Positions 4,736 through 63,500 of a stretch of DNA of 64,000 nt are shown one piece after another. Origin of the DNA: Dolichospermum flos-aquae CCAP 1403/13F (GTDB lineage: Bacteria > Cyanobacteriota > Cyanobacteriia > Cyanobacteriales > Nostocaceae); the NCBI RefSeq assembly GCF_012516395.1, contig NZ_CP051206.1:1116001-1180000 (forward strand). Reading direction: 5' to 3'. The first letter of the stretch is position 1, and each line of letters begins with the position of its first letter. Under the pieces are notes generated by a model. It was not told the DNA's origin and ran no database searches. It was given only the letters and a program-made list of their open reading frames with translations. A program made the translations under genes and the position numbers.

Positions 4736-4739
4736 AACG

Positions 4740-15854: not shown

Positions 15855-15923
15855 GATTTTACAAGTTATACAAAAAAGCCACAGTAATTCTACCATCTTC
15901 TAACTTGCAAAATAAGTCTGCTT

Positions 15924-40400: not shown

Positions 40401-41144
40401 AATGAGGAGGAAACCCGCGCCTTATTGCAGGATGTTCCCGCTGCCTATAATACACAAATTAATGATATTTTGTTGACTGCATTGGCACAAAGCTTTCATG
40501 AATGGACAGGAGCAAATTCATTAATTGTTGATTTAGAGGGACATGGACGAGAAGACTTATTTGAAGATATAGATTTATCCCGGACTGTCGGTTGGTTTAC
40601 TACTTTGTTTCCTGTACAATTCAACCTTGGGTTGGGGAATCAGTTAGAAGAAACTTTGAAATTAGTGAAAGAACAACTGCGTCGCCTACCTAAACATGGT
40701 ATTGGCTATGGTATCTTGCGATATTTACATCCAAGTTCCATAATTCAAAATAAATTCCAAACTTTACCTCAAGCAGAAATCAGTTTTAATTATTTAGGTC
40801 AATTTGATCAAGTTCTGTCTGCTTCTGCCATGTTGGGAGCAGTTAAAGAATGGAAATCAGAACAAAGTCAGCGGGGGTATTGCAGCCATCTCTTGGCAAT
40901 AAGTGGATTGATTCACTCAGGAAAGTTAGAAATGGAGTTTGCTTATAGCGAGAAAATTCACAAGCGAGCGAGTATTGAAAAGTTTGGGCTGGGATTTATG
41001 GAAGTATTAAGAACCCTGATTCTTCACTGCAAATCTAAGGAGTCATCCACCTATACCCCTTCTGATTTTGCTGCTGCTAAAATCAATCAACAACAGCTTG
41101 ATAAATTAATAGAAAAAATTAATAGAAAAAACCCCAAGAGTTAG
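37456..41144 (+). pseudogene. apnA1: apnA1 3' piece: C-domain end, adenylation (Lys), thiolation, epimerisation
   Basis: After the deletion junction at about 37452-37456 the frame reads DLPFDKVVEILKPERNLSYNPLFQVMFSFHD, the end of a condensation domain. A full A domain follows (YVIYTSGSTGKPKGV, NSYGPTETTV, YKTGDLVRYQPDG), then a carrier of the LGGDS type (near 39550) and an epimerisation domain with HHLVVDGISWRILLEDL and EGHGRE. The specificity residues I read are D-T-E-D-I-G-S-V-I-K, acidic and fitting Lys; with epimerisation this gives the D-Lys that closes the ring. The ATG at 37530 could start a 1204-residue protein, but without a condensation domain it cannot accept the starter. Intact apnA2 downstream has the same module. 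Confidence 0.85.
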
Positions 41145-41233: not shown

Positions 41234-44200
41234 ATGCAAGAAATAGTGATTGATTCTAATGATGACGTTGATGATTATTCTGCCTTAACTGAGCAGGAGC
41301 GACATAAAATATTGGTAGAATGGAATGATACCAGGGCAGATTATCCTCGACATTTGTGTGTACATGAATTATTTGCAGCACAAGTGGCAAAAACTCCAGA
41401 CAATATTGCTGTCATTTTTGAGGGGCAGAAACTTACTTATCAAGAGTTGAATCACCGAGCTAACCAAGTGGCTCATTATTTGCAATCTTTGGGTGTTGAG
41501 CCAGAAGTGCTGGTAGGGATTTGTGTGGAGCGTTCCCTAGAAATGATCATCGGAATGTTGGGCATCCTTAAGGCGGGTGGTGCTTATTTACCACTAGATC
41601 CAACCTATCCGAAAGAGCGTTTATCGTTCATGCTTTCAGATTCACAAGTACAAGTGCTGTTAACACAACAAAAGTTTGTAGAAAGCTTTGCTGACAGTGG
41701 TGCAAAAACAGTTTGTTTAGATCAAGATTGGGAATTAATTACTCGCCAAAATCAAGAAAATCCTACTAGCGATGTCACGGCAGAAAATCTAGCCTATGTG
41801 ATTTATACATCTGGTTCTACAGGCACACCAAAGGGTGTAATGATTCAGCATCGAGGGGTATGTAATCTTGCTCAAGCACAAGTAAAACTGTTTGGCGTAA
41901 ACCAAAATAGCCGTGTTCTCCAGTTTGCTTCTTTCAGTTTTGATGCTTCAGTTTCGGAAATTGTGATGGCCTTGTGTTCTGGAGCTAGTCTTTATCTGGG
42001 AAATCAAGATTCTTTGCGTCCAGGTATAGACTTAATCCGATTTTTGCGTCAACAATCAATCACTCACGCCACACTACCACCCACAGCACTAGCAGCTTTG
42101 CCCAAAGAGGAATTGCCAAACTTGCAAACTCTCATCGTTGCTGGAGAAGCTTGTAATCCAAAATTGATCGCTCAATGGTCAAAAGAGCGGCGTTTCTTTA
42201 ATGCTTATGGACCAACGGAATCAACTGTTTGTGCCACAGTTGCAGAATGTACTTTTGGGGAAACTCAACCAACCATTGGCCGGGCGATCGCTAATATACA
42301 AATTTATATTCTTGATCACAATCTTCAACCCGTTCCTATTGGCGTTCCGGGTGAATTATATATTGGTGGTGATGGGTTAGCTAGAGGCTACCTGAACCGT
42401 CCAGAATTAACTAAGGAAAAATTTATTTCCAATCCATTTAAGAAGACAGAAGGGAGTAGATTATATAAAACTGGTGATTTAGCTCGTTATTTACCAGATG
42501 GCAACATTGAGTTTCTGGGGCGAGTGGATAATCAAGTCAAGATTCGCGGCTTCCGCATAGAATTGGATGAAATCGAGAAGTTGTTAATTCAACACCCAGA
42601 TGTTAAGCAAGCGGCGGTAATTGCTCGTGAAGACATTCCTGGAGATAAACGGCTGCTTGCTTATGTGGTTCTGAATCAAAAGCCGGAAGCAATTGTTACT
42701 ACCCTCAAAAACTTACTTCAAGAAAATCTACCTCAATACATGATTCCAGGGGTATTTGTCGTTTTAGATTCTTTACCCCTCACCCCCAATGGCAAAGTAG
42801 ATCGTCAGAATCTTCCAGTGTGCGATCGCACACGCCCCGATTTAGAAGAAAGCTTTGTTGCACCTCGTAACCCAATTGAAGAAAAATTAGCGGCTATTTG
42901 GGCTGATTTACTAGGTTATGAGCAAATAGGAGTTAATGACAACTTTTTTAATCTCGGTGGACATTCCCTGATAGTGGCTCAAATCCTTTCCCGTGTACGC
43001 GACAGTTTTCAAGTTGAGTTATCGTTTGCAAACATCTTTGCTAATCCTACCGTAGCGGGTTTAGCTAGTGTCATTCAACAGCATGAACTCCTAGAACAAA
43101 AACTACAAAGTCCTGCTATACAAAGGATTTCACGGGCTGGAATGTTACCTGTTTCCTTTGCTCAAGAGCGCGTGTACTTCATCCAGGAAGTAGCACCCGA
43201 AAATACAGCATACCAAGCTCAAGCAACTCTCAGATTTCAGGGACACCTCGATGTCATAGTCCTCAAAAAATGTCTCAGTGAGATTGTGCAAAGACATGAA
43301 ATCTTCCGCACAACTTTTCCAGCAGTCAATGGACGGTTATTTCAGGTCATCCACTCATCCTTACCAATTGAATTAAACGTCGTAGACATCGAGAAATTTA
43401 CGGGGTCAGAGCAAGAAGCAGAAATTCAACGTCTATTTGATGCAGAGGTAAAGAAGCCCTTTTACTTGGATAAATTGCCTTTAGTCAGATGGTTATTGTT
43501 AAAGTTGAATGACCAAGACCATCTTTTAGTCCACATTGAACATCACATGGTTCATGATGGCTGGTCTTTCAATAACGTCTTTTTGAAAGAGTTTTTAGCA
43601 CTTTATCAAGCCTTCTGTGAGGGTCATCCCTCCCCACTGCCAGAATTACCAATCCAGTTTGTAGACTTTGCGAGTTGGCAGAGAGAATGGGTGCAAAGCC
43701 AGGAAGCCCAAGCCCAATTAGCCTACTGGCAGCAGCAGTTATCCGGCAGTCCGCCCCTCTTGGAATTACCATATGACCGCCCACGACCAGCAGAACAAAC
43801 TTACAACGGCGCTCAAGTCAGGTTAGAGTTGCCCATTACTTTGTGCGAATCCTTGAGAGTTCTGAGCCGTCAAGAGGGAATTACCTTATTTATGACGACC
43901 TTGGCGGCATTTTTAGTAATTGTCCGCCGATACACTGGACAGGACGATCTTTGTCTAGGTACGGCTGTTGCCAATCGGCGGATGCGCGAGACAGAACAAT
44001 TAATTGGCATGATCGTCAATAACCTGGTTTTACGCACCGATTTATCCGGTAATCCCACGTTTCGGGAGTTGCTGGGTCGAGTCCGCAAAGTGAGTCTGGA
44101 AGCCTTTGCTAACGAAGATTTACCCTTTGATAAGGTCGTGGAGGTGATCAAGCCAATACGGAACTTAAGTTATAATCCTCTGTTTCAAGTGATGTTTAGC

Positions 44201-47200
44201 TTCCATGATTCTCCCCGTCCAGACTTAACTTTACCAGGCTTGAACATCACAACGAATGTAGCCCTCAGCAACAAATCAACAAAGTTTGATCTTGATGTTG
44301 TGTTGATTCCGCATTCCCAGCTAAATGGCAAAGATAAGGGAATTACTCTTATTTGGGAATACAACGCTGACTTATTCGACGCTGCCACAATCCAGCAGAT
44401 GGTAGACCAGTATCAAGTTTTACTAAAAGGGATTGTTGATAACCCAGAGCAGCGAGTTTCTGAATTACCGATCCTAAACCAGCCTCAGCAGGAATTATTG
44501 ATGGAGTGGAATCAGACTCATAGAGAATATACTCAAAAAAATTGTATCCATAATTTGTTTGAGTCTCAGGTAGAGTTAACACCCGATGCTGTAGCTGTAG
44601 AACAGGATGGTCAAAAATTAACTTATCGTCAATTGAGCGATCGCGCCAACCAATTAGCCCACTATCTGCAAAGTTTGGGAGTTAAACCAGAAACCCTAGT
44701 GGGAATCTGCATTGAACGCTCCTTAGATATGATTATCGGCTTACTTGGGGTGATTAAAGCAGGTGGCGCTTATGTTCCTATTGACCCATCCTACCCCCAA
44801 GAGCGAATAGCTGAAATTCTCGCAGATACGCAACTAGGAATTTTGCTAACCCAAGATAAATTCCCAAATCAACGGCTAGATTACACAGGAAAAACAATTT
44901 GTTTAGATACAGATTGGTCAATCATTTCTCAACACAGCACAGCTAACCCGCACAGTGATGTCAAACTTCATCACCTATCCTATATTATTTATACTTCTGG
45001 TTCTACGGGTAAACCCAAGGGGGTAATGATTGAACATCGGTCATTAATGAATTTTGTAATCACTGCCATTGATAAATATGGAATCAATGCCGGCGATAGG
45101 ATTTTACAATTTGCGTCTGTTTGCTTTGATACTTCCATTGAGGAAATCTTTCCCTGTCTGTCCGTTGGTGCAACCTTAGTGTTACGCACGGAAGAAATGC
45201 TCCACTCCAGTGATGAATTTTGGCGGTATTGCCAAAAATGGCAATTGACTGTTTTGGATCTGCCCACAGCATACTGGCATCAGTTAGTAGCAGAACTTAA
45301 CCCTGAAGATGCCCCCATTCCTGAAGGTTTGAGAACTGTAATTATTGGTGGTGAAGAAGTCCAACTAGAAAAGGTGCAACATTGGCATAATTGTGTAGCT
45401 GATCTTTCCCCAGCCCCCCAATTGTTTAATAGTTACGGACCAACAGAAGCAACGGTTGTCACCACCTTAGAACTTTTAACCCCAGTTGCACCTGTTAGCA
45501 TTGGCCGACCCATTAGTAATGCTCAGGTTTATATTTTAGATCAATATCTGCAACCTGTACCCATAGGAGTTCCTGGAGAAATGCACATTGGGGGAGCAGG
45601 ACTAGCTAGAGGCTATTGGCAACGTCCAGAATTAACCAATGCCAAATTTATCCCCAATCCCTTTGAGGAGCTAGGGAATAGTAAACTGTACAAAACTGGG
45701 GATTTAGCAAGATTCCGCGCCAATGGCAGTCTAGAATATCTGGGACGAGTTGACAATCAAGTGAAGATTCGCGGTTTCCGGATTGAGTTGGGAGAAATCG
45801 AAACGGTATTGAGACAACACCCACAAGTGTTACAATCCGTGGCTATCGCCCATGAAGACGTTCCCGGACAAAAGCGACTCGTTGCTTATATTGTTCCCCA
45901 GCATCAGCAACCAACAATTGATGAATTGCGCCATTTCCTCAAGGAAAAACTCCCAAATTACATGATTCCAGCGGCGTTTATGCTGCTGAAAACTCTCCCC
46001 ATAACTGCCAACGGCAAAGTAGATTATCGCGCTCTCCCAACCCCCGATTTTTCTCATCATGTCGAAGATAAATTTATTGCTCCTCGTACAGTTATAGAAG
46101 AGAAATTAGTGGCGATTTGGTCGGAAGTTCTCAGAATAGGAAAAGTTGGCATCCACGATAACTTTTTTGAACTGGGTGGAGACTCGATTCTCAGCATTCA
46201 GTTAATTTCCAAAGCTAATCAAGCAGGTATTCAAATTGCTGCTAAACAGCTATTTAAGTATCAAACCATTGCCGAATTAGCGGCTGTAGCGGGTATCACT
46301 CGCCAAATCAATGCTGAACAAGGTTTAGTAACTGGTGCTGTAAGGTTGACACCTATTCAAAATTGGTTTTTCGAGCAGAAATTACCCAGACCTAATTATT
46401 TTAACCAGTCAACACTGTTAGAAGTGCCATCAGACTTGCAACCTGAGTTATTGCAGTCAGCATTACAACAACTGTTAGGACATCACGATGCTTTACGGCT
46501 GCGGTTTGTACAGGAAGGAGAAAACTGGCAACAAATTAACACCGCGACACGGGAATCTGTGCCATTGAGTATCTTTGATTTGTCCCACCTATCACCACAA
46601 GAACAGCAAACAGCAATAAAAGCGACTGATGCTGAACTTCAGGCTAGTCTGGATTTATCTACGGGGGTAATAGCACAAGTCGCTTTATTTCAATTAGGCA
46701 ATGATAAACCGAGTTATTTACTCTTCATTATCCATCATTTAGCTGTTGATGCTGTCTCATGGCGGATTTTGCTAGAAGATTTGGCGACTGCTTACCAACA
46801 AATTAGCCGCAATGAAGTTATCAAATTACCACCTAAGACAACTTCCTGGCAATATTGGAGCGATCGCCTCACAGAATATGCCCAAATCGAGGCTATCAAA
46901 GAGTTGGATTACTGGCTAAATCAATCTAGCATTCCAGTCACAGCTTTACCAGTAGACTATCCTTCAGATCAAGAAAATAACACTGTAGCCTCAACCGCGT
47001 CTGTGTCACTGGCTTTAAATGAAGAACAAACCCGCGCCCTCTTACAAGATGTACCCTCTGCCTACAATACTCAAATCAATGATGTCCTGTTGACTGCCCT
47101 AGTGCAAAGTTTTGCCCAATGGACAGGAGAAAGTTCTTTACTAATTGATTTGGAAGGACATGGCAGGGAAGACTTATTTGAGGATGTAGATTTATCGCGC

Positions 47201-47758
47201 ACTGTCGGTTGGTTTACGACATTATTCCCCGTGAGGTTACAACTACAAGAAATTGACCATCCAGGAAACGCTTTAAAGTTTGTTAAAGAACAACTGCGGC
47301 AGATTCCCAACCGAGGAATTGGTTATGGTGTATTGCGATATTTGCAGGAAAACAGCACAATCCGCGAAAAATTACAGTCACTACCATCAGCACAAATCAG
47401 TTTTAACTACCTTGGTCAATTCGATCAAGTGCTGAAAGCCTCTGAATCCTTGGGTTTGGCTAAAGAATTTAAAGCTGAACAAAGCTTACTCAATCAACGT
47501 AGTCATTTATTAGGAATCAGTGGTTTTATTCGTGGAGGAAAACTGGAAATGACTTGGGCTTATAGTCAGAAAATTCACAAGCAAGACACCATTAAAAAGT
47601 TAGCTTTAGGATTTATAGAAGCATTAAAAAATCTAATAAATCACTGTCAATTAACGGAGTCTCAAAGCTATACTCCCGCGGATTTTTCAGCAGCCAAACT
47701 CAATCAACAACAGCTAGATAAATTCCTATTCAAAATTAACAAAAACAAACCCAAGTAG
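41234..47758 (+). CDS. apnA2: Anabaenopeptin synthetase ApnA2 (A-T-C-A-T-E)
   Basis: 2174 residues. Order: A1 (about 20-540), T1 (LGGHS near 575), C (HHMVHDG near 770), A2 (about 1095-1600), T2 (LGGDS near 1647), E (from 1690). It loads the exocyclic residue and adds D-Lys; the ureido bond between the two is the hallmark of anabaenopeptins. My reading of the A1 code is D-A-S-T-I-A-A-V-C-K (aromatic, Tyr likely) and of A2 D-T-E-D-I-G-S-V-V-K (Lys). One oddity: the E-domain motif is HHLAVDAVSW, with Ala where the sister has Gly (HHLVVDGISW). His and Asp are kept. It has the same layout as apnA1 and is the intact alternative starter. Confidence 0.9.
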   Translation: MQEIVIDSNDDVDDYSALTEQERHKILVEWNDTRADYPRHLCVHELFAAQVAKTPDNIAVIFEGQKLTYQELNHRANQVAHYLQSLGVEPEVLVGICVERSLEMIIGMLGILKAGGAYLPLDPTYPKERLSFMLSDSQVQVLLTQQKFVESFADSGAKTVCLDQDWELITRQNQENPTSDVTAENLAYVIYTSGSTGTPKGVMIQHRGVCNLAQAQVKLFGVNQNSRVLQFASFSFDASVSEIVMALCSGASLYLGNQDSLRPGIDLIRFLRQQSITHATLPPTALAALPKEELPNLQTLIVAGEACNPKLIAQWSKERRFFNAYGPTESTVCATVAECTFGETQPTIGRAIANIQIYILDHNLQPVPIGVPGELYIGGDGLARGYLNRPELTKEKFISNPFKKTEGSRLYKTGDLARYLPDGNIEFLGRVDNQVKIRGFRIELDEIEKLLIQHPDVKQAAVIAREDIPGDKRLLAYVVLNQKPEAIVTTLKNLLQENLPQYMIPGVFVVLDSLPLTPNGKVDRQNLPVCDRTRPDLEESFVAPRNPIEEKLAAIWADLLGYEQIGVNDNFFNLGGHSLIVAQILSRVRDSFQVELSFANIFANPTVAGLASVIQQHELLEQKLQSPAIQRISRAGMLPVSFAQERVYFIQEVAPENTAYQAQATLRFQGHLDVIVLKKCLSEIVQRHEIFRTTFPAVNGRLFQVIHSSLPIELNVVDIEKFTGSEQEAEIQRLFDAEVKKPFYLDKLPLVRWLLLKLNDQDHLLVHIEHHMVHDGWSFNNVFLKEFLALYQAFCEGHPSPLPELPIQFVDFASWQREWVQSQEAQAQLAYWQQQLSGSPPLLELPYDRPRPAEQTYNGAQVRLELPITLCESLRVLSRQEGITLFMTTLAAFLVIVRRYTGQDDLCLGTAVANRRMRETEQLIGMIVNNLVLRTDLSGNPTFRELLGRVRKVSLEAFANEDLPFDKVVEVIKPIRNLSYNPLFQVMFSFHDSPRPDLTLPGLNITTNVALSNKSTKFDLDVVLIPHSQLNGKDKGITLIWEYNADLFDAATIQQMVDQYQVLLKGIVDNPEQRVSELPILNQPQQELLMEWNQTHREYTQKNCIHNLFESQVELTPDAVAVEQDGQKLTYRQLSDRANQLAHYLQSLGVKPETLVGICIERSLDMIIGLLGVIKAGGAYVPIDPSYPQERIAEILADTQLGILLTQDKFPNQRLDYTGKTICLDTDWSIISQHSTANPHSDVKLHHLSYIIYTSGSTGKPKGVMIEHRSLMNFVITAIDKYGINAGDRILQFASVCFDTSIEEIFPCLSVGATLVLRTEEMLHSSDEFWRYCQKWQLTVLDLPTAYWHQLVAELNPEDAPIPEGLRTVIIGGEEVQLEKVQHWHNCVADLSPAPQLFNSYGPTEATVVTTLELLTPVAPVSIGRPISNAQVYILDQYLQPVPIGVPGEMHIGGAGLARGYWQRPELTNAKFIPNPFEELGNSKLYKTGDLARFRANGSLEYLGRVDNQVKIRGFRIELGEIETVLRQHPQVLQSVAIAHEDVPGQKRLVAYIVPQHQQPTIDELRHFLKEKLPNYMIPAAFMLLKTLPITANGKVDYRALPTPDFSHHVEDKFIAPRTVIEEKLVAIWSEVLRIGKVGIHDNFFELGGDSILSIQLISKANQAGIQIAAKQLFKYQTIAELAAVAGITRQINAEQGLVTGAVRLTPIQNWFFEQKLPRPNYFNQSTLLEVPSDLQPELLQSALQQLLGHHDALRLRFVQEGENWQQINTATRESVPLSIFDLSHLSPQEQQTAIKATDAELQASLDLSTGVIAQVALFQLGNDKPSYLLFIIHHLAVDAVSWRILLEDLATAYQQISRNEVIKLPPKTTSWQYWSDRLTEYAQIEAIKELDYWLNQSSIPVTALPVDYPSDQENNTVASTASVSLALNEEQTRALLQDVPSAYNTQINDVLLTALVQSFAQWTGESSLLIDLEGHGREDLFEDVDLSRTVGWFTTLFPVRLQLQEIDHPGNALKFVKEQLRQIPNRGIGYGVLRYLQENSTIREKLQSLPSAQISFNYLGQFDQVLKASESLGLAKEFKAEQSLLNQRSHLLGISGFIRGGKLEMTWAYSQKIHKQDTIKKLALGFIEALKNLINHCQLTESQSYTPADFSAAKLNQQQLDKFLFKINKNKPK

Positions 47759-47808: not shown

Positions 47809-50800
47809 ATGCAAAATATCCAAGACCTTTATGAACTTTCGCCAATGCAACAAGGGATGTTGTTTCATACCCTTTATGCACCCGAATCAGAAGTTTATTT
47901 TGAGCAGTTGCTTTGTATCCTCTCTGGAGAATTGAACTTTCCCTCGTTCCAAAAAGCTTGGGAACAAGTTGTGGCGAGACACTCAGTATTACGCAGTTCT
48001 TTTTATTGGGAGGAGATAGAAAAGCCCTTGCAAATGGTAAGTAAGCAAGTGGATATCCCGTGGATGAAAATAGACTGGCGAAATTTCACAGCTGATGAAC
48101 AACAAAATCACTTAGAGGATTTTTTGTTGAGCGATCGCCAAAAAGGATTTGATCTGAGTATTGCTCCCTTAATGCGCTTCACCCTCATCCAATTAACAGA
48201 GCAGACCTATCAACTTATTTGGAGTCATCATCATATCCTATTTGATGGCTGGTCAATGCAGATTATCCTCAAAGAAGTTTTAGCTTTCTATGAAGCACAG
48301 CAGCGAGGGGAACATTTACGCCTCCAACCTGTTCGTCCCTATCGAGAATATATTGATTGGTTACAACAACAGGATATTGATCAAGCCAAGAGATTTTGGC
48401 AAACAACCCTCCAGGGTTTTGAAACTCCGACCTTTTTGGGAAAAACCAAGGGAGAGGGAATATATCATGAACAGCATTTCCAATTATCGCCAACTGTTAC
48501 TGAAAAATTACAAGGTATGGCCAGACAGCACCATTTAACCTTGAATAATTTGGTACAGGGAGCTTATGGGTTATTAATTTCCCGCTACAGTGGGGAAAGT
48601 GATGTCATCTTTGGTGCAACTGTATCCGGTCGTCCACCGACCCTGGAGCAAGTAGACTCAATGGTAGGACTATTAATTAACACTCTCCCCATCCGAGTCA
48701 AAGTTACCAACAAGACAGAATTATTACCCTGGCTCAAGCAATTACAAACCCAAGCACTAGAACAAGAACAGTATGCTTATTGTTCTCTCGCAGAAATTCA
48801 AAATCAGAGTGATATTTTCCCCGGATTGCCATTATTTGCAAGTCTTTTAGTCTTTGAAAATTATCCATTAGATTCTGCCCCACAAGAAACCAAAAAAACT
48901 TTAGAAATTAGTCATATTAGTTGTTTTGAACGCACAAATTATCCGCTGACGATAGTTATTAATCCTGGTTCGCAATTAGCTGGCAGAATTGTTTATGATA
49001 CTAGCTGCTTCGACGACAAGAAAATTGCTCGCATGATTGGACATTTCCTGACATTGCTAACAGGAATGGCAGCTAATTTACAACAAAATATTTCTGACTT
49101 ATCTCTAATGAGTGCAGCCGAAGCAGAAGAATTAATGCTGCTAGAAAATCAACAATTAACAAATGCTATTAATTACAAATGTGTTCATGTTTTATTTGAA
49201 GAACAGGTAGAAAAAAGCCCTGATGCAGTAGCAATTATATATGAACAACAACATTTAACTTATCGAGAATTAAATAACCGCGCCAATCAATTAGCCCATT
49301 ATTTGCAATCACTGGGAGTTAAACCCGAAGTCCGAGTAGGAATTTGTGTTGAGCGTTCCCTAGAAATGGTCATCGGTATTCTGTCCATTCTCAAAGCTGG
49401 TGGGGCTTATTTTACCCTAGATCCAGCTTATCCTCCCGAAAGATTAGAGTTCATGGTAGCAGATGTACAAACACCGATCTTACTAACACAAACTCATTTA
49501 CAAAATGGACTACCACTGAATAATCAAACTGTGGTGAATCTTGACACAGATTGGGGAATTATTGCCCAATACAAACAAGACAATTTAAACAGTGAAGTTA
49601 ATCCAGAAAATTTAGCTTATATCATTTATACCTCCGGCTCGACAGGAACACCAAAAGGCACAGAAGTTCCTCATCGTAGCTTCATGGGTTTTATGTTTGA
49701 AGTTGATTACGTTCACCTTGATGCAGAAAAAATTTGGCTACAACATTCATCAATTTCTTGGGATGCACTCACGCTAGAACTTTGGCCATCATTACTTTAC
49801 GGTGGACGTTGTGTGCTTTATCCAGAGAAAATTCCCACACCAGCAGGCTTAACCCGCATTATCCAAGAACAAGGAATTAATATCCTTTGGCTAACTTCCG
49901 CTTTCTTCAATCTGATGATTGATACAATGCCACAAGGGTTATCGGGAGTTAAACAACTACTCATTGGCGGAGAATCTATTTCTGTAGATCATGTTCGTCG
50001 CGCTTTAGAAATCTTGCCAGAAACGCAAATAATTAACGGTTATGGACCTTCAGAATGTACCGTATTTACCTGTTGTTATGCCATTCCCAAACAAATTACT
50101 GAAAATATCCATTCTATTCCTATTGGTAAACCCATTGGCGATCGCACAGTTTACATATTAGATGAAAATTTACATCGAGTGCCAATTGGTATCCCTGGTG
50201 AACTTTATGTGGGTGGTGCGAGTGTTGCGAGGGGTTACTTAAATCAGCCCGTATTAACCAGTGAAAAGTTTATTCCTAATCCCTTTATTCAAGGAGATAC
50301 CCTTTACAAAACCGGAGATTTAGTCCGCCGTCTACCTAATGGAAATCTGGAATTTATCGGTCGAATTGATACCCAAGTAAAAATTCGCGGTTTTCGGATT
50401 GAATTGGCAGAAATTGAGGCAGTTTTGATGCAAAATCCTGACATCAAACAAGTTCTAGTGATTGCACGGGAAGATGAGCCAGGGAAGAAATTCCTAGTAG
50501 CCTATTTGGTTACGAAGGATAATTCACCTACTTCTAGCAGCCTCCGAACTTTCCTCAAGGAAAAGCTACCAGATTACATGATACCTACTGCTTTCGTAGT
50601 TCTGGCAGCATTTCCCCTCACTCCTAATGGTAAAGTCAACCGCCTTGGTTTGCCTATTCCCGAAGGTTTCCAAAGAAATGTAGAGGTTGATTTTGTGCTG
50701 CCTCGCACGGCTACAGAACAAGAATTAGCCACAATTTGGACTGAAGTTTTGAAATTAAAACAGGTGGGAATTTATGATAACTTTTTTGAGTTAGGAGGAC

Positions 50801-51018
50801 ATTCTTTACTCGCTACTCAAGTGATTTCTCGATTAAGAGAAGCCTTTTCTCTAGATTTTCCTTTACGTTATTTATTTGAGAATCCCACAATTGCTGAACT
50901 TGCCCACAAGGTTATGGAACAACAAATTGAACAAGCAGAAAATGATGCCCTAGCCCAGGTTTTAGGCGAAGTTGATGGGTTATCAGATGAAGAGGTAACA
51001 CAAGCATTAATGTTTTGA
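47809..51018 (+). CDS. apnB: Anabaenopeptin synthetase ApnB (C-A-T, Val)
   Basis: 1069 residues. C domain (1-440; HHILFDG near 139), expected to take a D-configured donor because it follows an epimerisation module. A domain (about 450-960; IIYTSGSTGTPKGTEVPHRS, NGYGPSECTVF, YKTGDLVRRLPNG). T domain (LGGHSLLATQ near 990) and a short acidic tail ending DEEVTQALMF, likely a docking segment. The code I read is D-A-L-W-L-G-G-V-F-K, one change from the classical Val code, so Val (or Ile) enters as residue 3. Intact. Confidence 0.9.
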   Translation: MQNIQDLYELSPMQQGMLFHTLYAPESEVYFEQLLCILSGELNFPSFQKAWEQVVARHSVLRSSFYWEEIEKPLQMVSKQVDIPWMKIDWRNFTADEQQNHLEDFLLSDRQKGFDLSIAPLMRFTLIQLTEQTYQLIWSHHHILFDGWSMQIILKEVLAFYEAQQRGEHLRLQPVRPYREYIDWLQQQDIDQAKRFWQTTLQGFETPTFLGKTKGEGIYHEQHFQLSPTVTEKLQGMARQHHLTLNNLVQGAYGLLISRYSGESDVIFGATVSGRPPTLEQVDSMVGLLINTLPIRVKVTNKTELLPWLKQLQTQALEQEQYAYCSLAEIQNQSDIFPGLPLFASLLVFENYPLDSAPQETKKTLEISHISCFERTNYPLTIVINPGSQLAGRIVYDTSCFDDKKIARMIGHFLTLLTGMAANLQQNISDLSLMSAAEAEELMLLENQQLTNAINYKCVHVLFEEQVEKSPDAVAIIYEQQHLTYRELNNRANQLAHYLQSLGVKPEVRVGICVERSLEMVIGILSILKAGGAYFTLDPAYPPERLEFMVADVQTPILLTQTHLQNGLPLNNQTVVNLDTDWGIIAQYKQDNLNSEVNPENLAYIIYTSGSTGTPKGTEVPHRSFMGFMFEVDYVHLDAEKIWLQHSSISWDALTLELWPSLLYGGRCVLYPEKIPTPAGLTRIIQEQGINILWLTSAFFNLMIDTMPQGLSGVKQLLIGGESISVDHVRRALEILPETQIINGYGPSECTVFTCCYAIPKQITENIHSIPIGKPIGDRTVYILDENLHRVPIGIPGELYVGGASVARGYLNQPVLTSEKFIPNPFIQGDTLYKTGDLVRRLPNGNLEFIGRIDTQVKIRGFRIELAEIEAVLMQNPDIKQVLVIAREDEPGKKFLVAYLVTKDNSPTSSSLRTFLKEKLPDYMIPTAFVVLAAFPLTPNGKVNRLGLPIPEGFQRNVEVDFVLPRTATEQELATIWTEVLKLKQVGIYDNFFELGGHSLLATQVISRLREAFSLDFPLRYLFENPTIAELAHKVMEQQIEQAENDALAQVLGEVDGLSDEEVTQALMF

Positions 51019-51212: not shown

Positions 51213-51363
51213 ATGAGCGATTTACTAAAACGGCTGGAAAATCTTTCACCAGAAAAGCGAGAATTAGTCTTACAAAAACTAAAAAAACAACAACAATCTC
51301 CACAGCTTACACCAGTATCAAGGGATCAATTTTTGCCTCTTTCTTTTGCTCAACAAAGACTGT
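51213..51363 (+). pseudogene. apnC: apnC 5' end, cut by IS
   Basis: Encodes MSDLLKRLENLSPEKRELVL and on to LPLSFAQQRL, the usual N-terminal helix and first motif of a condensation domain. The frame is interrupted at the codon CTG-T by an ISAs1-type element. The frame as it stands stops 12 codons later in the IS. Confidence 0.92.
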
Positions 51364-52970
51364 CAGGGGAAACGCATCTAATTTTTTTTGACAAAATGTA
51401 ACTTCTATGAATAGATAAAAAGGGCAGTATTACCATGTTAATATCAAGCCAATAAATGAGTATGAAGAAAATTTGATGGTAAATTCGTTTCTATAAGAAT
51501 CAATAAAATGAGTTGAAGTGGTATTCTCAATAAAACTAAAGAGACAAAATTCACAAAATGAAGCTACCACCAAAAATCACAATAGTAGATCACTTTAAAG
51601 ATTTAGAAGATAAAAGAGTTGAGAGAACAAAAAGGCATAAATTAATAGATATAGTAACCATTGCGATTTGTGCAGTGATCTGTGGAGTAGATAGTTGGGT
51701 ATTGATGGAGGCTTATGGAAAAAAGAAAGAAAAATGGCTAAAACAATTTTTAGAACTTCCAAACGGGATTCCATCTCATGATACATTCGCCAGAGTATTT
51801 GCGAGAATAGATCCGCAACAATTTCAGAATTGTTTTTTGAGTTGGATAAAATCTATCAATAAAATTACAGAAGGAGAAGTCATAGCAATAGATGGGAAAA
51901 CATTAAGGCATTCATATGATAAAGGAAAGGATAAAGGTGCGATTCACATGGTAAGTGCATGGGCAACTAGTAATAAATTAGTATTAGGACAATGTAAAGT
52001 AGAAGAAAAGTCAAATGAAATAACAGCCATACCGGAATTAATTAAAGTATTAGATATAGCCGGATGTTTAGTAACGATTGATGCGATGGGGTGTCAAAAA
52101 GAGATAGTAAAATCAATTGCAGAAAAATCAGGCGAATATATTATCGCACTCAAAAAGAATCAAGGTAATTTATATAAGAATGTAGAAGAAATCTTCAAAG
52201 AAGCTATATCTAAAGGGTTTGAGGGATTCAAATATAGTGAATTTCATACAAAAGAAGACAAACATGGAAGAGAAGAGATTCGTCATTATCTCATGTTATC
52301 AGACATAGAAGAAAGAATAGATACTGATAAGAAATGGGTAAATCTTCAAAGTGTAGGAATGGTAGAATATATACGAAAAGTTAATGGAAAAACGAAGGTT
52401 GAGACAGGCTATTATATAAGTAGTTTGACAAATAATGCGAAATTACTAGGAGAATCAGTCCGCACTCATTGGGGTATAGAGAATTCATTACACTGGGTTT
52501 TAGATGTAGCTTTTAGAGAAGATGATTGTCGGATAAGAAAGGATAATGCACCACAAAACTTTGCAGTTATTCGTCATATAGCAGTTAATCTTTTAGGAAA
52601 AGAAAAAAGCCAAAAACTAGGAACTAAAAGTAAGCAGTTTTGTGCAGGATGGGATGATGAATATTTAGAGAAGATTTTAGAATGTATCTGATAAAAATCA
52701 GAAAATATAGACAAATATAAATATAACCAATTTATTTTTCTGTTGATTCTACAATAGAATCTATATTTTTGATGCCAAAAAATATAGATATTAATATATA
52801 GAACTGAACAAAATAAATCCATCATTAAAAATAAATAATTACTCTAAATTTATGAAATTTTTATAATTTTAATAAAGGAATTTATCAGATTTTGAATGAA
52901 GTTAGATATTTTCCCATATTGATGCACTAATATAGTATTCTGTCAAGATAATTTAGATGCGTTTCCCCTG
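51364..52970 (+). mobile_element. ISAs1-family insertion sequence in apnC
   Basis: 1607 bp with perfect 18-bp inverted ends CAGGGGAAACGCATCTAA (51364-51381) and TTAGATGCGTTTCCCCTG (52953-52970). A 10-bp target duplication CAAAGACTGT sits on both sides (51354-51363, 52971-52980). There is one transposase gene and a long AT-rich non-coding tail (52692-52952). The perfect ends and duplications point to recent insertion. Confidence 0.95.
51558..52691 (+). CDS. ISAs1-family transposase
   Basis: 377 residues, the family's usual length. N-terminal DDE_Tnp_1-associated part (IVDHFKDLEDKRVERTKRHKLIDIVTIAICAVICGVDSW) and core motifs: EGEVIAIDGKTLRHSYDKGKDKGAIHMVSAW (first Asp), CLVTIDAMGCQKEIV (second Asp), and HWGIENSLHWVLDVAFREDDCRIRKDNAPQN (Glu). 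No stops or shifts, so it is probably active. Transcribed in the same direction as apnC. Confidence 0.93.
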   Translation: MKLPPKITIVDHFKDLEDKRVERTKRHKLIDIVTIAICAVICGVDSWVLMEAYGKKKEKWLKQFLELPNGIPSHDTFARVFARIDPQQFQNCFLSWIKSINKITEGEVIAIDGKTLRHSYDKGKDKGAIHMVSAWATSNKLVLGQCKVEEKSNEITAIPELIKVLDIAGCLVTIDAMGCQKEIVKSIAEKSGEYIIALKKNQGNLYKNVEEIFKEAISKGFEGFKYSEFHTKEDKHGREEIRHYLMLSDIEERIDTDKKWVNLQSVGMVEYIRKVNGKTKVETGYYISSLTNNAKLLGESVRTHWGIENSLHWVLDVAFREDDCRIRKDNAPQNFAVIRHIAVNLLGKEKSQKLGTKSKQFCAGWDDEYLEKILECI

Positions 52971-52980
52971 CAAAGACTGT

Positions 52981-55900
52981 GGTTTATTGACCAACTAGAA
53001 GGCGAAAACTGCGTCTATAATGTCCCATTTTTCTGGCAAATTAGCGGATTGCTGAATATCAATGCTTTAGAACAAGCTATAACAGCAATTGTCCACCGTC
53101 ATGAAGTATTACGTACTAATTTTTGTGTGATCAATGAGTCACCTATACAGGTGATTCATCCTCATCCTCATCCTCAAATGAAAATGCAAGTGCTGGACTG
53201 GCGACAATTAACAGCAGAAGATCAGTTAAGCAAAGCCCAGCATTTAGCTACAACAGAATTACAACAGTCCTTTGATTTATCAAATGCGCCTTTGCTGCGG
53301 GTAAAGTTGTTGCAACTAGCTGACCAATCCCATTTATTGTTGCTTGTCATTCATCACATTGTTTGTGATGGTTGGTCAATGGGAATCTTCCGTCAGGAAT
53401 TGTCCACCCTTTATACTGCCTTTTGTAGACAAGAATCCTCTCCCCTGCCAGAATTATCGCTGCAATATGCGGATTTTGCCCACTGGCAAAGACAATGGCT
53501 ACAGGGCGATGTTTTGCAAAATCAACTCAATTACTGGCAAAAACAATTAGCCGCAGTTCCGCCGCTGTTAGAATTGCCGACAGACCGACCCCGCCCGTCC
53601 ACGCAAACCTATCGGGGAAGTAGTGAGTTTTTGCAACTTGATCAGGATGTAACTCAGCAGTTGAAGCATTTAAGTCAACAGTCAGGAACAACTCTGTTTA
53701 TGACTTTATTGACAGTATTTACGCTCTTACTTTCACGCTACACTGGACAAGAGGATATTGTAGTTGGTTCAGCGATCGCTAATCGTAACCGCCAGGAAAC
53801 AGAGTCACTAATTGGCTTTTTTGTCAATACTCTAGCATTGCGAACTAATCTACAAGGGAATCCAACTTTTAAAGAATTACTGGAACGAGTCAAACAAGTA
53901 ACTCTAGATGCTTATGATCATCAGGATTTGCCCTTTGAAAAACTGGTTGATGAACTGGGATTAGAGCGATCGCTTTCTCATCATCCCCTATTTCAAGTTG
54001 TTTTTGGTTTTCAAAATGAAACTCAAGAAATATTGTCAACCAATGGATTAACCCTGACCCCATTTACATGGGAAAATACAACGACTTTGTTGGATTTGTC
54101 GTTAATTTTCCGAGAAACACCGCAAGGTTTAACAGGAGAATGGGAATATACGACTGATTTATTTGAATCTGAAACAATCCAACGAATGGTGGGACATTTT
54201 GAAGTTCTACTGAAGCAAATTATTGATCATCCAAATAAACCAATTAATACTCTATCCTTGCTGACAGAAACAGAAATTCAGCAACTACAAAATTGGAACC
54301 AAACTCAAACATCATACCCCCGCGATCAGACTTTAGTGGACTTATTTGAACAACAAGTTATTAAAAATCCTGATCATATTGCTGTAGTTTTTGAATCTCA
54401 GCAGCTAACTTATCAACAATTGAATAAAAAAGCCAATCAATTAGCTAATTATTTACTAAAAAATCACCAAATTCAACCAGATAAATTAATTGGTATTGCT
54501 GTTGAACGTTCTTTAGAAATGATTATTGGTGTACTTGGTATCCTCAAGTCTGGTGGTGCTTATGTACCAATTGATCCCAATTATCCCCAAGAACGGATTC
54601 AGTTTATGTTAGCAGACTCCGAGATATCGGTATTACTAACACAAAGTTTTTTATTAGAGCAATTACCTTTAGATAATTTAGAAAATTCTGTTCAAGTTAT
54701 TTGTTTAGATCCAGAAAATTTTGCTCAAGAAACAACAGATAATCCTCATTCTCAAAGCCAGCCTGATAATTTAGCCTATGTTATTTATACTTCCGGTTCA
54801 ACAGGACAACCCAAGGGGGTAATGATTGAACATCGGGCAATTGTCAATCTAGCTTTAGCCTGGAATACAACTTTTCAAGTTCAAAATTACAGCCGCTTAC
54901 TGCAATTTGGGTCTTTTAGTTTTGATTTATCTATTGGTGAAATTGCGACTGCTTTATCAGCAGGTGCTTGTTTATATTTAGGCAATAAAGATACTTTGTT
55001 ACCTGGTCAAAGCTTAGTTAACTTTTTAACTGAACACAAAATTACTCACGGCTTTTTATCACCTTCAGCTTTATCTGTCTTACCAAAGGCGAGTTTCCCT
55101 GATTTACAATGTTTAACTGTTGGAGGAGAGGCTTGTCCGGCTGAATTAGTAAGTCAATGGGGAAGAGAACAACATTTATATAATTGCTACGGTCCAACAG
55201 AATCTACTGTGACCGCAGCTATTTATCTTTGTCAACCCAATGGCGAAAAACCAGCAATTGGTAAACCAATACCTAATGCTAATATCTATATTTTAGATGC
55301 AAACAATCAACTATTACCTCCAGGAATACCAGGAGAATTATGTATTTCTGGGGTTGGTTTAGCTAGAGGTTATCTCAATCGTCCTGAAATTACAGCCGAG
55401 AAATTTATGGAAATTGATTTATTCGGTAAAACTGAGCGCATTTATAAAACTGGTGATTTAGCAAAATGGGATTATGATGGCAATTTAGAATATTTGGGTC
55501 GGATTGATGAGCAAGTAAAATTACGGGGTTTTAGAATTGAACTCGGAGAAATTGAATCACTGTTATTACAACATCCATTAGTTCAAGAAGCTGTTGTCAT
55601 TTTGTATGAAATTGATAATAATCCTAGATTAGTAGCTTATATTATGGCAACAGAAAAATCCGCCAATGTAGCTGAAAAAGTGAGAGAATACCTCAAAAAT
55701 CGCCTCCCAAATTATATGATTCCTAGCCAGATTATGGTTTTGGATCAATTTCCTCTGACTGCTAATGGTAAACTAGATCGCCGCGCATTACCAGCACCAG
55801 ATACAACCGCTTCTACTGATTTGGAAATACCAGTAACTCCCACAGAAGAACTACTCGCTAGTTTATGGCAAGGTTTATTAAAAGTTAAATCTGTTGGTCG

Positions 55901-58900
55901 TTCTGATAACTTCTTTGAATTAGGTGGACATTCCCTGTTAGCTACTCAATTAGTTACCCGAATTCGTGATATTTTCGGGGTAGAAGTACCTGTTCGTAAG
56001 ATATTTGAGCAAAACATTTTATCTGAGTTAGCGAGGGAAATTGATCAAGCATCTGCGAGTGTTGCTTTACCTCCCATTTCACCCCAGCCAGAAAATGAAC
56101 CAAAAACTCCGTCTTTTGCCCAATCAAGACTTTGGTTTATCGCTCAACTGGAAGCGAAAGGAACTTCTTCTACCTATAATATGCCAGTGGCCTTTCAACT
56201 AGATGGCAACCTAAATTTAGAAGCTATGCGGCAAAGTTTAACTTATCTGCTAGAACGGCATAGCAGTCTACGCTCTTATTTCCCTACTTTGGAGGGAGAA
56301 CCCCAAGTAGTAGTTAAAAATGTCGAAGATATAGAAGTATTAGAAATTGCCGACTTACAAGCACTCCCTCCCCAAACTCAAGGGGAAACTGTGCAACATT
56401 TATCTGATCTTCACGCTCAAAAATCCTTTGACTTAAATACTGGTCCAGTGTTCAAAGCGAAACTGCTGCAACTGAGTGAGCAGAAAAATGTCCTGCTGAT
56501 TAATATGCACCACATTATTAGTGATGGCTGGTCCATGGGAGTATTTAAGCGAGAATGGGAACAAGCTTATACTGCTTATGCTGCGGGATCTGTGCCGAAC
56601 TTGTCACCATTAGCGATTCAATATAGTGATTTTGCAGCTTGGCAGCGCAGTTGGTTACAAGGGGAAACCTTATTAACTCAAGAAAATTATTGGCAACAAC
56701 AACTAGGGGATGCGCCTCGCTTGCTGGAATTACCGACTGATTATCTCCGTCCAGCGCAACAAAGTTACCAAGGTGAGCGTGAAGAATTTTCTTTGAGCAA
56801 AGAACTGACTCAGAAACTTAAAGCTATTAGTCAACAACAAGGGGTGAGTTTATTTATGACCCTGTTGACTGCTTTTAATATCTTACTATCCCGTTACAGC
56901 CGCCAAGAGGATTTATGTGTTGGTTCTGCGATCGCTAATCGCACCCATAGCTATACAGAAGGGTTAATTGGCTTTTTTGTCAATACCTTAGTATTGCGAA
57001 GCAAAATCAAGTCAGAGCAAAGCTTTAGTGAGTTACTGCAACAAACTCGCCAAACTTGCTTAGATGCTTATGCTCATCAAGACATTCCTTTTGAGTATTT
57101 AGTTGAAAAGTTACAACCAGAACGCAGTCTCAGCCACAATCCCTTGTTCCAAGTGATGATGGTGTTGCAAAATGCGGTTGGAGCAGGGGCGAAGGTTCAT
57201 TTACCAGGGCTGGAGATTCAATACTTAGAACAAAGTTTCCCATTTGCCAAGTTTGATATCCTGCTGGATTTGAGCGAAAGAGACGAGCAACTACACTGTA
57301 TGTGGGAATATGCCACAGATTTATTTGCGGCCTCAACCATTAGGCGCATGGCGGCACATTTTGAAGTTTTGCTCACAGCAATAGTTCAAAATTCCCAACA
57401 ACCGATTTATCAGCTACCTATCATCACCCCCGCAGAAATCCAACAACTGCAAGTTTGGAATCAAACTGAGACAGATTACCCTCAAAACCATACTTTGGTG
57501 AGTTTGTTTGAAAATCAGGCTGCAAAAACGCCCGATCAAATTGCAGTAGTGTCGGTAGATCAAAGCTTGAGTTATCAAGAACTCAATCAAAAAGCAAATC
57601 GCCTAGCAGATTATTTATTGCAACTCAAAAGTCAGCAACAATTATCTGATCCCCCATTGATGGCGATTTGCATGGAGCGATCACTGGAAATGCTGATCGG
57701 CATATTTGCGATCCTCAAAGCAGGTGGTACATATCTACCAATTGATCCGAGTTATCCCCAAGAACGCATTCATTTAATGCTCGAAGATAGTCATGCTGCG
57801 GTATTACTGACAACGAAATCTCTGCCACAGCAACTTCCCTTAGAAAAACTCAAAAGTACCTGCCAATTAGTATTTTTAGATCAACCCACCTGGAGCGATA
57901 GCCCAACAGAGAATCCTCAAAAATTCATTCGTTTTGATGACTTAGCTTATGTAATTTATACTTCTGGTTCTACAGGCAAACCTAAGGGCGTTGCTATTGC
58001 CCATGCTAGTGCGGTAGCATTTGTAAACTGGGCGCATTCAGTCTTTAGTACAGAACAGCTTGCAGGTGTTTTAGCATCAACTTCAATCTGTTTTGATCTC
58101 TCCATTTTTGAAATTTTTGTCCCCCTGACTCAAGGGGGGAGTGTAATTTTGGTGGAAAATGCGCTCTACATTGAGCAAGCACATCAGAGTTCGATCCCGA
58201 TAACTTTGATTAATACTGTACCGAGTGCGGCGGCTGAACTCCTGAATATGAATGTAATTCCGTCCAGTGTACAGGTTATTAATTTAGCGGGTGAACCCTT
58301 AAGAAATAACTTGGTACAAGCTTTATATCAAAATACATCTGTACAAGAAGTTTATAACCTCTATGGACCTTCTGAGGACACAACTTATTCAACATTTACG
58401 AAAGTTGCCAAAAATGCCCAGCACGAACCTACCATTGGCAAAGCGATCGCCAACACTCGCATCTATATTTTAGATCATGCTAATCAACCCCTGCCCCCCG
58501 GTGTTCCTGGGGAACTGTGCATTGGGGGTGCAGGTTTAGCACAGGGCTATTTGCATCGTCCCGATTTAACTGCCGAAAAATTTATCACATTAGAATTATT
58601 TGGTAAAACTGAGCGAATTTATAAAACTGGTGATTTAGCCCGATGGCTACCTGACGGTAATTTGCAATATTTAGGGCGGATCGATCATCAAGTCAAATTG
58701 CGGGGTTTCCGGATTGAATTAGGTGAAATTGAAGCATCTTTACTCAAACACCCCAAAATTCAGGAAGCGGTTGTTTTGGTGCGGGAAGACAGCGAATGCT
58801 ATCAACGTCTAGTTACTTATGTTGTCCCCACAACAGAAGGCGACTATACCAGCCAAAGTGAACAGGTAGAATTGTGGGAACAAGTTTTTAATGATAGCTA

Positions 58901-60533
58901 CACTCAACAAACAACACCAACCGATGATCCAACTTTGAATCTTGCAGGTTGGAAGGATAGCTACACAGGAGAGCCAATTTTGCGATCGGCCATGCAAGAA
59001 TGGCGTGATACAACAGTTGACCAAATTTTAGAACTTGCACCCAAACGAGTTTGGGAAATTGGTTGCGGAACAGGGATGTTATTATTTAAAGTTGCATCCC
59101 ATTGTCAACATTATTTAGGTACAGATTTTGCATCGAGGGGATTGCAGTATATTGAACAACATCTCAAACAGCAATCTCTCCAAAACAAAGTTACTTTAAA
59201 ACAAAGTGCTGCTAACCAGTTTGATGGCATTGAATCCAATGTTTATGACTTGGTAATCATTAATTCGGTAATTCAGTATTTCCCTTCTTTAGATTACTTG
59301 TTGTCAGTAATTGAAGGGGCAATCAAAACTGTGAGCCATCAAGGAAAAATATTGATTGGGGACGTGCGAAATCTCCATTTATTAGCAGCTTTCCACACCA
59401 CCACAGAATTTTATCGCGCCCCTGATGACTTATCAATTCAGGACTTGCGCCAAAAAATTCAAAACAGGATTCGCACGGAAGAAGAATTGCTGATTGACCC
59501 TGATTTCTTTATCGCTCTCAAGCAAAGATTTTCTCGGATTAGTCACGTCCAAATTGAATTAAAACGGGGTTACAGTCATACGGAAATGAGTCGTTTTCGT
59601 TATGATGTTATTTTACATTTAGATCAAGTAGATATTCCCCTAACTCAACCTCAATGCTTAGATTGGCAAGAACAACAGTTAAATCTGGCAACAATTGAGA
59701 GAATTTTAACAACCGAGCAACCAGATTTACTAGGGATTAAGAATATTCCTAATGCACGTCTAACTTCAGAAATGGCGTTGTTAGCACAAATTCCTCAATT
59801 AGATGGTACTGTCACAGATTTAAAAGCGGCAATTGCCCAAGTGAAATCAGGGATAGAACCGGAAGCATTCCGAAATTTAGCGCGAGATTTGCCCTATAAG
59901 GCTTTTATCCAATATAGCTCCACAGGATTTTCTGATTACGATGTTGTTTTTCAACGGCATATCTTTGAAGAAGACAAAATCCCAAGATTTGCGACAAAAG
60001 GCAATTGGCGGCTCAAACCTTGGCAAAATTACGCTAATCAACCGTTGCAATATCGCACCAATCAAATTGATCCAGCTTTATTAGCAGAATGGCGGGACTT
60101 TTTAGAGAAAACCCTGCCTGATTATATGATTCCCAGTCATTTTGTTGTTTTGGACAAACTGCCACTGACACCAAATGGTAAAGTAGACAGAAAAGCTTTA
60201 CCTGCACCAGATCCAAAAATTGCAGTCACAGATATTGAATTGCCTGTAACGGAGACCGAAAAATTGCTGGCTCAACTTTGGGCGAAGTTATTGAAATATG
60301 AGGTCATAGCCCGACAAGATAACTTCTTCAACTTGGGAGGACATTCTTTATTAGCTACCCAACTTTGCTACCGCATTCGTGACACTTTCAAAGTAGAACT
60401 GCCACTGCGTCAAGTATTTGAGTCTCCTACTATCATTGACTTGGCAAATTATATAGATAGCTGCATTTGGGTTAATTCGACAACCACAGATATACAACCT
60501 TTAAACTCAGACGAAGAGGAAATTGAACTATGA
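52981..60533 (+). pseudogene. apnC: apnC main body: C-A(Hty)-T-C-A-MT(MeAla)-T
   Basis: Joined to the 5' end with one target copy removed, the frame reads AQQRLWFIDQLEG without loss, giving a protein of 2567 residues. Positions in that protein: C1 (HHIVCDG near 170), A1 (500-1000), T1 (LGGHS near 1030), C2 (HHIISDG near 1230), A2 from about 1535 with an N-methyltransferase inserted (WEIGCGTGMLLFKV near 2075), and T2 near 2500. Codes I read: A1 D-L-G-F-T-G-C-V-T-K (homotyrosine) and A2 D-L-F-N-N-A-L-T-Y-K (Ala), hence Hty then N-methyl-Ala. From the first internal ATG (53049) a 2494-residue protein lacking the start of C1 is possible but probably inactive. Its stop overlaps the apnD ATG. Confidence 0.9.
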
Positions 60534-63500
60534 CCATGACACAAAATCAGCAAATAGTTTCTTTGATGCTGCGGTTGCAGAATATGGGCTGCCGAATTTG
60601 GGCTGAAGATGATAAGTTACGGATTCGTACTAGCAAAAACGCCCTCACTGCTGAACTCAAGCAGGAAATTCAAGACCGGAAAGCAGATATTCTCACTTTC
60701 TTGAAAGCTGCTAAAACACAAGCTGTTTCTACAGCGGAAATTCCGGCTTTAAGCGCTGACTCTCCCAAGCTTCTGTCCTTTGCTCAACAACGTCTCTGGC
60801 TATTAGCACAACTCCAAGGGTCATCAGCTACTTACAATATGCCGATCGCTTTACAACTGAACGGCAACCTGAATATTGATGCCCTACATTCTAGTTTGGC
60901 TGATCTGCTGAATCGGCACGAGAGTCTGAGGATGTATTTTCCTACAGTTGCCGGACAACCACAAGTTGCCATTCGCAGTTTAGACGAAATCGCAGTTTTA
61001 ACAGTACAAGATTGCCGGAAATTAGGGAGTGGGAACAAGGGAGAGCTTGATTTAGATACCCAATGCCCAAATATCCAAGATCTAATTGACGCTCATGCAC
61101 AACAACACTTGGACTTAAATACTGGCCCTTTATTTAAAGCTAAACTGCTGCAATTGGAGGAGCAAAAATCTGTCTTGGCTATCAATATGCACCACATTAT
61201 CAGTGATGGCTGGTCAATGGGAGTATTTTTGCGGGAGTTATGGCAGGCTTATACTGCTTATTCTCAAGGTAAGACCCCGAATTTTGCTCCTTTACCGATT
61301 CAATACAGTGACTATGCAACTTGGCAACGCCACTGGTTACAAGGAGAAGTATTAGAAAAGCAGATTAATTACTGGAAACATCAACTAGGTGATGCTTCCC
61401 CATTACTGGAATTACCTACAGATTATCCCCGTCCAGCACAGCAAAGTTACAGAGGCGATCGCTATATCTATGCTCTTACACCGGAATTAACTGCTGCTGT
61501 TAATGCTTTTAGTCAACAGCAAGGCGTAAGTTTATATATGACCTTGTTGGCTACTTTGAGCATTTTACTATCTCGTTATAGTCGGCAAGAAGACTTATGT
61601 ATTGGTTCTCCCATTGCTAACCGCACCCATAGCCAAACTGAAGGGTTAATTGGCTTTTTTGTGAATACTTTGGTTATGCGTCAGCAAATCAAACTAGAGC
61701 TAAGTTTTATTGAGTTTTTACAACAAACTCGCCAAACTTGTTTAGATGCTTATGTTCATCAAGACGTTCCCTTTGATGTGCTGGTAGAAAAGTTACGACC
61801 AGAACGCAGTATGAGCTATAACCCTTTATTCCAGGTCATGTTTACTCTGGAAAATAATGCTAGTCCAGATTTGGATTTATCAGGGTTAGATACTGAATTG
61901 CTGGGAGTCAAGGGTGCGATCGCTAAGTTTGATTTAACGCTGTTAGTAACCGAATCTGACAACCAGTTGAATTGCTCTTGGGAATATGCTACAGACTTGT
62001 TTGAACGGGGTACTATCCAACGCATGGCGGAACAGTTTACAGTGCTGCTGAAGGGAATTATTGATCATCCACACCAATCAATCAATACTTTACCTTTGAT
62101 GACAGCAACGGAACTGCTACAAATACAACGCTGGAATCAAACTCAAACTGATTATCCTCAAGATAAAACTTTTGTTGACATATTTGCAGAGCAAGTTGCC
62201 AAAAATCCTCATAATATTGCTGTAGTTTTTGAATCGGAAAGTCTAACTTATCAACAATTAAATGAAAAAGCCGAGCAATTAGCTGATTATTTAATTGAAA
62301 ATTACCAAGTTCAACCAGATACTTTAATTGGTATTAGTGTTGAACGTTCTTTAGAAATGATCATTGGTGTTTTGGGTATTCTTAAAGCTGGTGGTGCTTA
62401 TGTACCGATTGATCCTAATTATCCCCCAGAAAGAATCAAGTTCATGTTAGAAGATTCGCGGATATCGGTTTTATTAACTCAAAGTTTTGTAATACATAAA
62501 TTGCCTTTAGATAGTTTAGAAAATCCTGTTAAAGTTGTTTATTTAGATGCAGAACTAGACAAATACCCATCACCAATTGTCAATTGTCAATTGTCAACAC
62601 TTCGACTTCGCTCAGTGAACACCTTCAATTGCGATAATTTAGCTTATGTTATTTATACCTCTGGTTCAACGGGAAAACCCAAAGGGGTAATGATTGAACA
62701 TCGAGGACTGGTAAATTTAATTTTGGCAGTTGATGAAATTTTGCAAATTCAACCCCAAAGTCGTGTACTACAGTTTGCTAATTTCAGTTTTGATGCTTCC
62801 ATTTGGGAAATTGCTCCTACTCTTTCTGCAGGTGCTTGTTTGTATCTAACAAAAAAAGAAACCTTGTTACCTAGTCAAGAACTGATTGACTTTTTAACTG
62901 AACACAAAATTACTCATCTTACTATCCCACCTTCAGTTTTATCTTTGTTACCTCAAGCCACCTTACCTGATTTGCAAATTTTAATTACTGCTGGTGAAGT
63001 TTGCTCCAAAGAATTAGTTAACCGTTGGGCAAAAGGAAGAAGTTTTTTTAATGGTTATGGACCAACAGAATCTACAGTTTGTACCAGTATAGCTGTTTGT
63101 CAACCCGATGGGAAAAAACCACTAATTGGTCAACCGTTATCTAATCTCCGCACTTACATTTTAGATAGACATCATCAACCATTACCCCCTGGTATTCCTG
63201 GTGAGTTGTGCATTGCGGGTGTTGGTTTGGCGCGAGGTTATCTCCATCGTCCTGAATTAACTGCCGAAAAATTTATTGAAGTGGAATTATTCAGTCAAGT
63301 TGAGCGAATTTATAAAACTGGGGATTTAGCAAGATGGAGAGATGATGGCAATTTAGAATATCTAGGACGCATGGATGAGCAGGTAAAATTACGGGGTTTT
63401 AGGATTGAATTAGGGGAAATTGAATCACTTTTATTACAATATCCATTAGTTAAAGAAGCTGTTGTAACTGTAAATAAAACTGAGAATAACCAAAGTTTAA

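Follow-up and report, generated by a model that had tools for sequence, protein, structure and literature searches.

A young ISAsp2 insertion in apnC and further lesions in a putative anabaenopeptin cluster of Dolichospermum flos-aquae CCAP 1403/13F

The window analysed here is a 64,000-nucleotide stretch of the genome of Dolichospermum flos-aquae CCAP 1403/13F (contig NZ_CP051206.1, positions 1,116,001 to 1,180,000). It contains a cluster of peptide synthetase genes in which apnC is interrupted by an insertion sequence (IS), ISAsp2 of the ISAs1 family (Table 1). Gene order, domains and homology to relatives fit the apnA–E architecture, with interruption or truncation in apnC and apnE, and on these grounds the cluster is identified as an anabaenopeptin synthetase cluster. 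In the published arrangement, two modules are encoded by apnA, one by apnB, two by apnC and one by apnD, followed by the ABC transporter gene apnE (PMC5311044).

Table 1. Features of the apn cluster and of the element inserted in it (positions in the window)
Feature	Position	Strand	Basis
apnA1 (alternative starter), piece 1: A-T and start of condensation domain	35575..37479	+	
apnA1, piece 2 (other frame): condensation domain end followed by A-T-C	37443..41144	+	
apnA2, unbroken, two modules	41234..47758	+	
apnB, unbroken	47809..51018	+	
apnC, piece 1, about 50 residues, ends at ISAsp2	51213..51363	+	Translation, comparison with relatives
Target duplication, left copy, 10 bp, CAAAGACTGT	51354..51363	+	Exact direct repeat
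ISAsp2 (ISAs1 family), 1607 bp, within apnC	51364..52970	+	Ends, transposase profiles, match to pANA02 copy
ISAs1-family transposase, 377 aa	51558..52691	+	Open reading frame and profile matches
Target duplication, right copy, 10 bp, CAAAGACTGT	52971..52980	+	Exact direct repeat
apnC, piece 2, single open frame	52971..60533	+	Open reading frame, tblastn, comparison with relatives
apnD, unbroken; would end at 64771, beyond the window (L081:2771)	60530..64000	+	

Terminal inverted repeats of the inserted element were perfect over 18 bp, and 30 of 34 end positions were identical. The transposase matched the NCBIfam ISAs1 profile NF033564 over positions 1–314 of 314 (E 1e-137; 458.6 bits at a cut-off of 70), as well as Pfam PF13808 and PF01609; no solved structures resembling it by sequence were found. 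All 1607 bases aligned with a copy annotated as ISAsp2 family on plasmid pANA02 of Anabaena sp. 90 (NC_019429.1), and 1605 of them were identical. This was the one record at ≥99% identity among 67 plasmid records matched by blastn, the other 66 lying at 60–80%. By its transposase type, ends, duplication and near-identity to this record, the element is ISAsp2, a member of the ISAs1 family, in which target duplications are typically 8–10 bp. An earlier reading made from the letters of the window alone (the sequence-only reading) had described an ISAs1-type element with perfect 18-bp ends and an exact 10-bp duplication, and both the profiles and the junction sequence bear this out. The two copies of CAAAGACTGT are spaced by 1617 nucleotides, a multiple of 3; the 1617-bp insert of that reading corresponds to ISAsp2 plus one copy of the repeat.

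ISAsp2 breaks apnC in the first motif of the first condensation domain, and piece 1 ends with the residues ..LPLSFAQQRL. Translation from 52992 gave a Pfam condensation match beginning at profile position 19 of 456, so the break sits at the start of this domain. In the frame of piece 2 no ATG, GTG or TTG occurs before the TTG at 53049, and a protein made from this piece would therefore lack the first condensation motif. A search of ISAsp2 for promoters and terminators able to drive piece 2 gave 6 promoter-like sites against 9.8 expected, and 0 terminators against 1.1 expected. When the two pieces were compared separately with 17 other distinct relatives (L031–L045, L063 and L046), they adjoined directly (0 nt apart) in 16, and L046 gave no clear result. 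The locus of the strain itself (L061) served as the interrupted control; L062, apparently the same contig as L036, was counted once with it, and the distant L047–L049 were not included. Piece 2, open to 60533, aligned to the last residue of ApnC in two relatives (G008, 2594 aa; G002, 2574 aa), in one tblastn segment each. It contains both HHxxxDG motifs of condensation domains, together with motifs of adenylation, carrier and methyltransferase-like type. As the sequence-only reading had held, no further break, frameshifts included, was seen in apnC by open frame, tblastn against the two relatives or motif check. No second apnC was present among the best 18 candidates scored in the genome (G000), where the longest other match, 1530 nt at 75%, was apnD, and pieces above 80% identity were at most 71 nt long. 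Anabaenopeptin synthesis would very probably be abolished, as the synthetase breaks off some 50 residues in and translation of the remaining frame could begin no earlier than within the condensation domain.

The genome contains 26 full-length ISAsp2 copies. Thirteen, the apnC copy included, are identical, and each of the other 13 carries a single change, which is the same in six. The best 40 of 124 candidates were scored, and since this list goes down to fragments of some 35 bases, it is unlikely to have missed full copies. Two further copies are incomplete, one split by a 126-bp miniature inverted-repeat transposable element (MITE) and one cut at its 3' end. Among 59 other genomes, only G008 (99%) and G010 (91%) had full-length copies listed, a lower bound based on the best five candidates per genome. 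ISAsp2 has undergone a recent burst, and because the 26 copies differ by 0 or 1 change the apnC insertion is young, in agreement with the sequence-only reading. The same element was described in Anabaena sp. 90 (PMC3542288), with 6 copies listed there versus 26 full copies here, including those in apnC and at the end of apnE, and with a length of 1627 bp versus 1607 bp here, a difference perhaps made up by both duplications. A 165-base piece elsewhere in the genome (L030, G000:C1:3404220-3404384) was 88% like the ISAsp2 left end and could be an older remnant or a relative; its own ends showed no inverted repeat (14/60).

An identical ISAsp2 copy in the opposite orientation lies 14.9 kb downstream, outside the window (L010, G000:C1:1183895-1185501). 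The gene apnE ends at this copy, at the ABC signature: relatives were matched for 507 residues to LSLGEQ, after which the IS begins. In two relatives ApnE has 735 and 771 aa. A search of the genome with the G008 protein returned residues 1–508 at the apn locus (79%), the next best hit being a 41% paralogue, and the rest of ApnE (228 of 735 residues of the relative) was not found. This copy has no target duplication, and the DNA beyond it, with a tRNA-Lys gene, has its counterpart in G008 some 0.9 Mb away from the apn cluster there. Within a few kb beyond apnE, G008 also carries a second apnE-like ABC transporter gene (603 aa, 59% to the apnE piece of the strain analysed here; L088, G008:C1 ~4020801-4022612).

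The second apnA-like gene, apnA1 (35575-41144), is broken as well. Its piece 1 (A-T) stops at SFAQE, and piece 2 opens, in another frame, with condensation profile positions 328–456. About 310 residues of the condensation domain are gone, residues 657–967 of G008 ApnA having no counterpart. There is no IS at this break, so the damage to apnA1 can be tied to the ISAsp2-driven process only tentatively. Alternative starters are reportedly known from Anabaena.

An exact 10-bp duplication was kept at 8 of the 26 full ISAsp2 copies; 18 had none when lengths of 4–15 were checked within each copy. Away from junctions, 10-mers matched 0.014 times per 756 left/right comparisons, versus 8 at junctions. 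In the printed flanks of the pANA02 copy no duplication was seen, and one was likewise absent at the G008 copy for lengths of 5–13 bp. In 756 comparisons at lengths 7–12, no left flank of one copy matched the right flank of another, nor was a partner flank found for the 18 duplication-less copies with 10-mers and up to one mismatch; these partner flanks seem to be gone. The absence of swapped flank pairs argues against wrong assembly joins and against inversion between surviving copies. Inversion between ISAsp2 copies as the source of the missing duplications is disfavoured, no reciprocal flank partner having been found. The left flanks at L005 and L025 end with cagggg and caggggaaacg, respectively, matching how an ISAsp2-like end begins; the two copies look as though they had landed in or beside another such end.

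Of 40 copies of the 126-bp MITE, which has ISAsp2-like ends, 33 retained the exact 10-bp duplication, compared with 8 of 26 for ISAsp2 (Fisher p = 6e-5), and two more MITE copies had 9 bp. The best 40 of 61 candidates were scored and all 40 were examined (identity 96–100%). One MITE copy inside an ISAsp2 copy has its own 10-bp duplication (L027:2311-2436, G000:C1:169333-169458); the copy in the window, at 4729-4854 (L130), is without one. Because the short MITE mostly keeps the duplication and ISAsp2 mostly does not, flanking DNA was probably lost later at most ISAsp2 copies. If the MITE and ISAsp2 share a transposase, insertion probably makes the duplication, and the long ISAsp2 copies later lose it together with flanking DNA. 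We extend this, tentatively and with some doubt, to a two-stage life of ISAsp2-type elements in this genome, in which clean insertion with a 10-bp duplication would be followed at most copies, sequence-identical ones among them, by one-sided flank loss. As reciprocal flank pairs are absent, the route would be adjacent deletion and not inversion, driven either by the transposase or by recombination of direct copies; the MITE would be spared as being too short or as having no transposase gene. If this is true, it would be mainly through the second stage that IS bursts in bloom-forming Nostocales destroy peptide clusters, and both stages would be visible in the apn cluster.

We consider it highly probable that, during the recent ISAsp2 burst, one copy transposed in the ordinary way into apnC with a 10-bp target duplication, and that the cluster is eroding through IS rather than being reversibly switched off. 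The apnC locus would represent the fresh, as-inserted state and the apnE locus the state after loss of flanking DNA, presumably by deletion. The cluster would then be a snapshot of IS-driven erosion and not an isolated reversible switch. Because apnE is truncated and apnA1 is broken, it stays damaged whatever happens at apnC.

Several points weigh against this interpretation. The ends of the MITE are not the same as those of ISAsp2, and a different transposase may move it. Flank synteny of 4 of the 26 copies in three relatives looked like a local deletion at L008 and was rearranged at L001 and L021, and it is uninformative, since relatives also lacked collinearity at L007, a copy that has its duplication. 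ApnE may be dispensable, given that an apnE-ociD fusion in Planktothrix left production unaffected (PMC5311044), and this would weaken the claim that apnE loss alone matters. The ratio of nonsynonymous to synonymous substitution rates (dN/dS) was 0.09–0.25 for the window pieces versus relatives and 0.12–0.31 between the two relatives, which shows purifying selection without visible relaxation; the erosion is invisible in substitutions.

The sequence-only reading had proposed a fresh, single knock-out that precise excision could reverse, perhaps with a mixture of producer and non-producer filaments. Part of this holds: the 10-bp duplication is exact, ISAsp2 is unchanged and apnC shows no additional damage, and mixed IS-bearing and IS-free filaments were documented for mcy in Planktothrix (PMC4766695). 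The notion that a single event separates the strain from a functioning cluster is not supported, since the genome search did not recover the C-terminal part of apnE and some 310 residues are missing from apnA1; the pathway is thus not intact outside apnC. Nothing among the 26 copies pointed to precise excision, and 18 have lost flank instead, although an empty site is hard to recognise here. We regard a reversible knock-out as unlikely. Since two identical 1607-bp copies lie in opposite orientation 14.9 kb apart, recombination between them could invert the apnC–apnE segment and act as a phase switch, but this is very improbable: the matching duplications of the apnC copy mean that its flanks are unexchanged in the assembled state, and with apnE incomplete neither orientation would yield an intact cluster. 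That the assembly misjoined the flanks of ISAsp2 copies might be suspected, given the difficulty of assembling 26 near-identical copies and the lack of a duplication at 18 of them. The same 10 bases on both apnC flanks, the origin of both pieces from one gene, and the lack of the swapped flank pairs that misjoins should yield (0 in 756 comparisons) make such an artefact extremely improbable.

Comparable damage has been described in other strains. The mcy cluster of Planktothrix contains IS insertions and partial deletions (PMC4766695), likewise a case of an IS with 10-bp direct repeats (ISPlr1) in a peptide synthetase cluster; however, that is another cluster and another IS, and single filaments were studied there versus one assembly here. 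Inactivation of mcy genes by IS and MITE, known from Planktothrix and Anabaena, was also reported (PMC3542288). In Planktothrix, loss of mcy and apn was linked to IS insertion (PMC9366434), and a 381-bp deletion in apnB inactivates synthesis (PMC5311044); apn clusters were likewise inactivated or lost there, but without an IS inside apnC in the sections covered. The hassallidin cluster of Anabaena sp. 90 was deleted and the mutants prevailed in culture (PMC3542288), which likewise is an inactivated peptide cluster in a cultured strain of Nostocales, but in another cluster and by deletion instead of IS. Among the open-licence papers searched, none announced an IS inside apnC in the parts covered. 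The apn cluster appears to stand between the insertion of an IS and erosion that cannot be reversed, both stages coming from the same element in one cluster. The duplication kept in the short MITE and lost in the long IS provides an internal control for the way in which genes may be removed by IS bursts in these cyanobacteria. In practice, DNA-based monitoring that relies on the presence of apn genes would here overestimate the producers of anabaenopeptin.

No internal stops were found in apnA2, apnB, apnD or the homocitrate-synthase-like gene 3' of apnD. Elsewhere in the window, two adjoining leucine-rich-repeat genes on the minus strand (13817-14773 and 14964-15896) have long open frames on the opposite strand.
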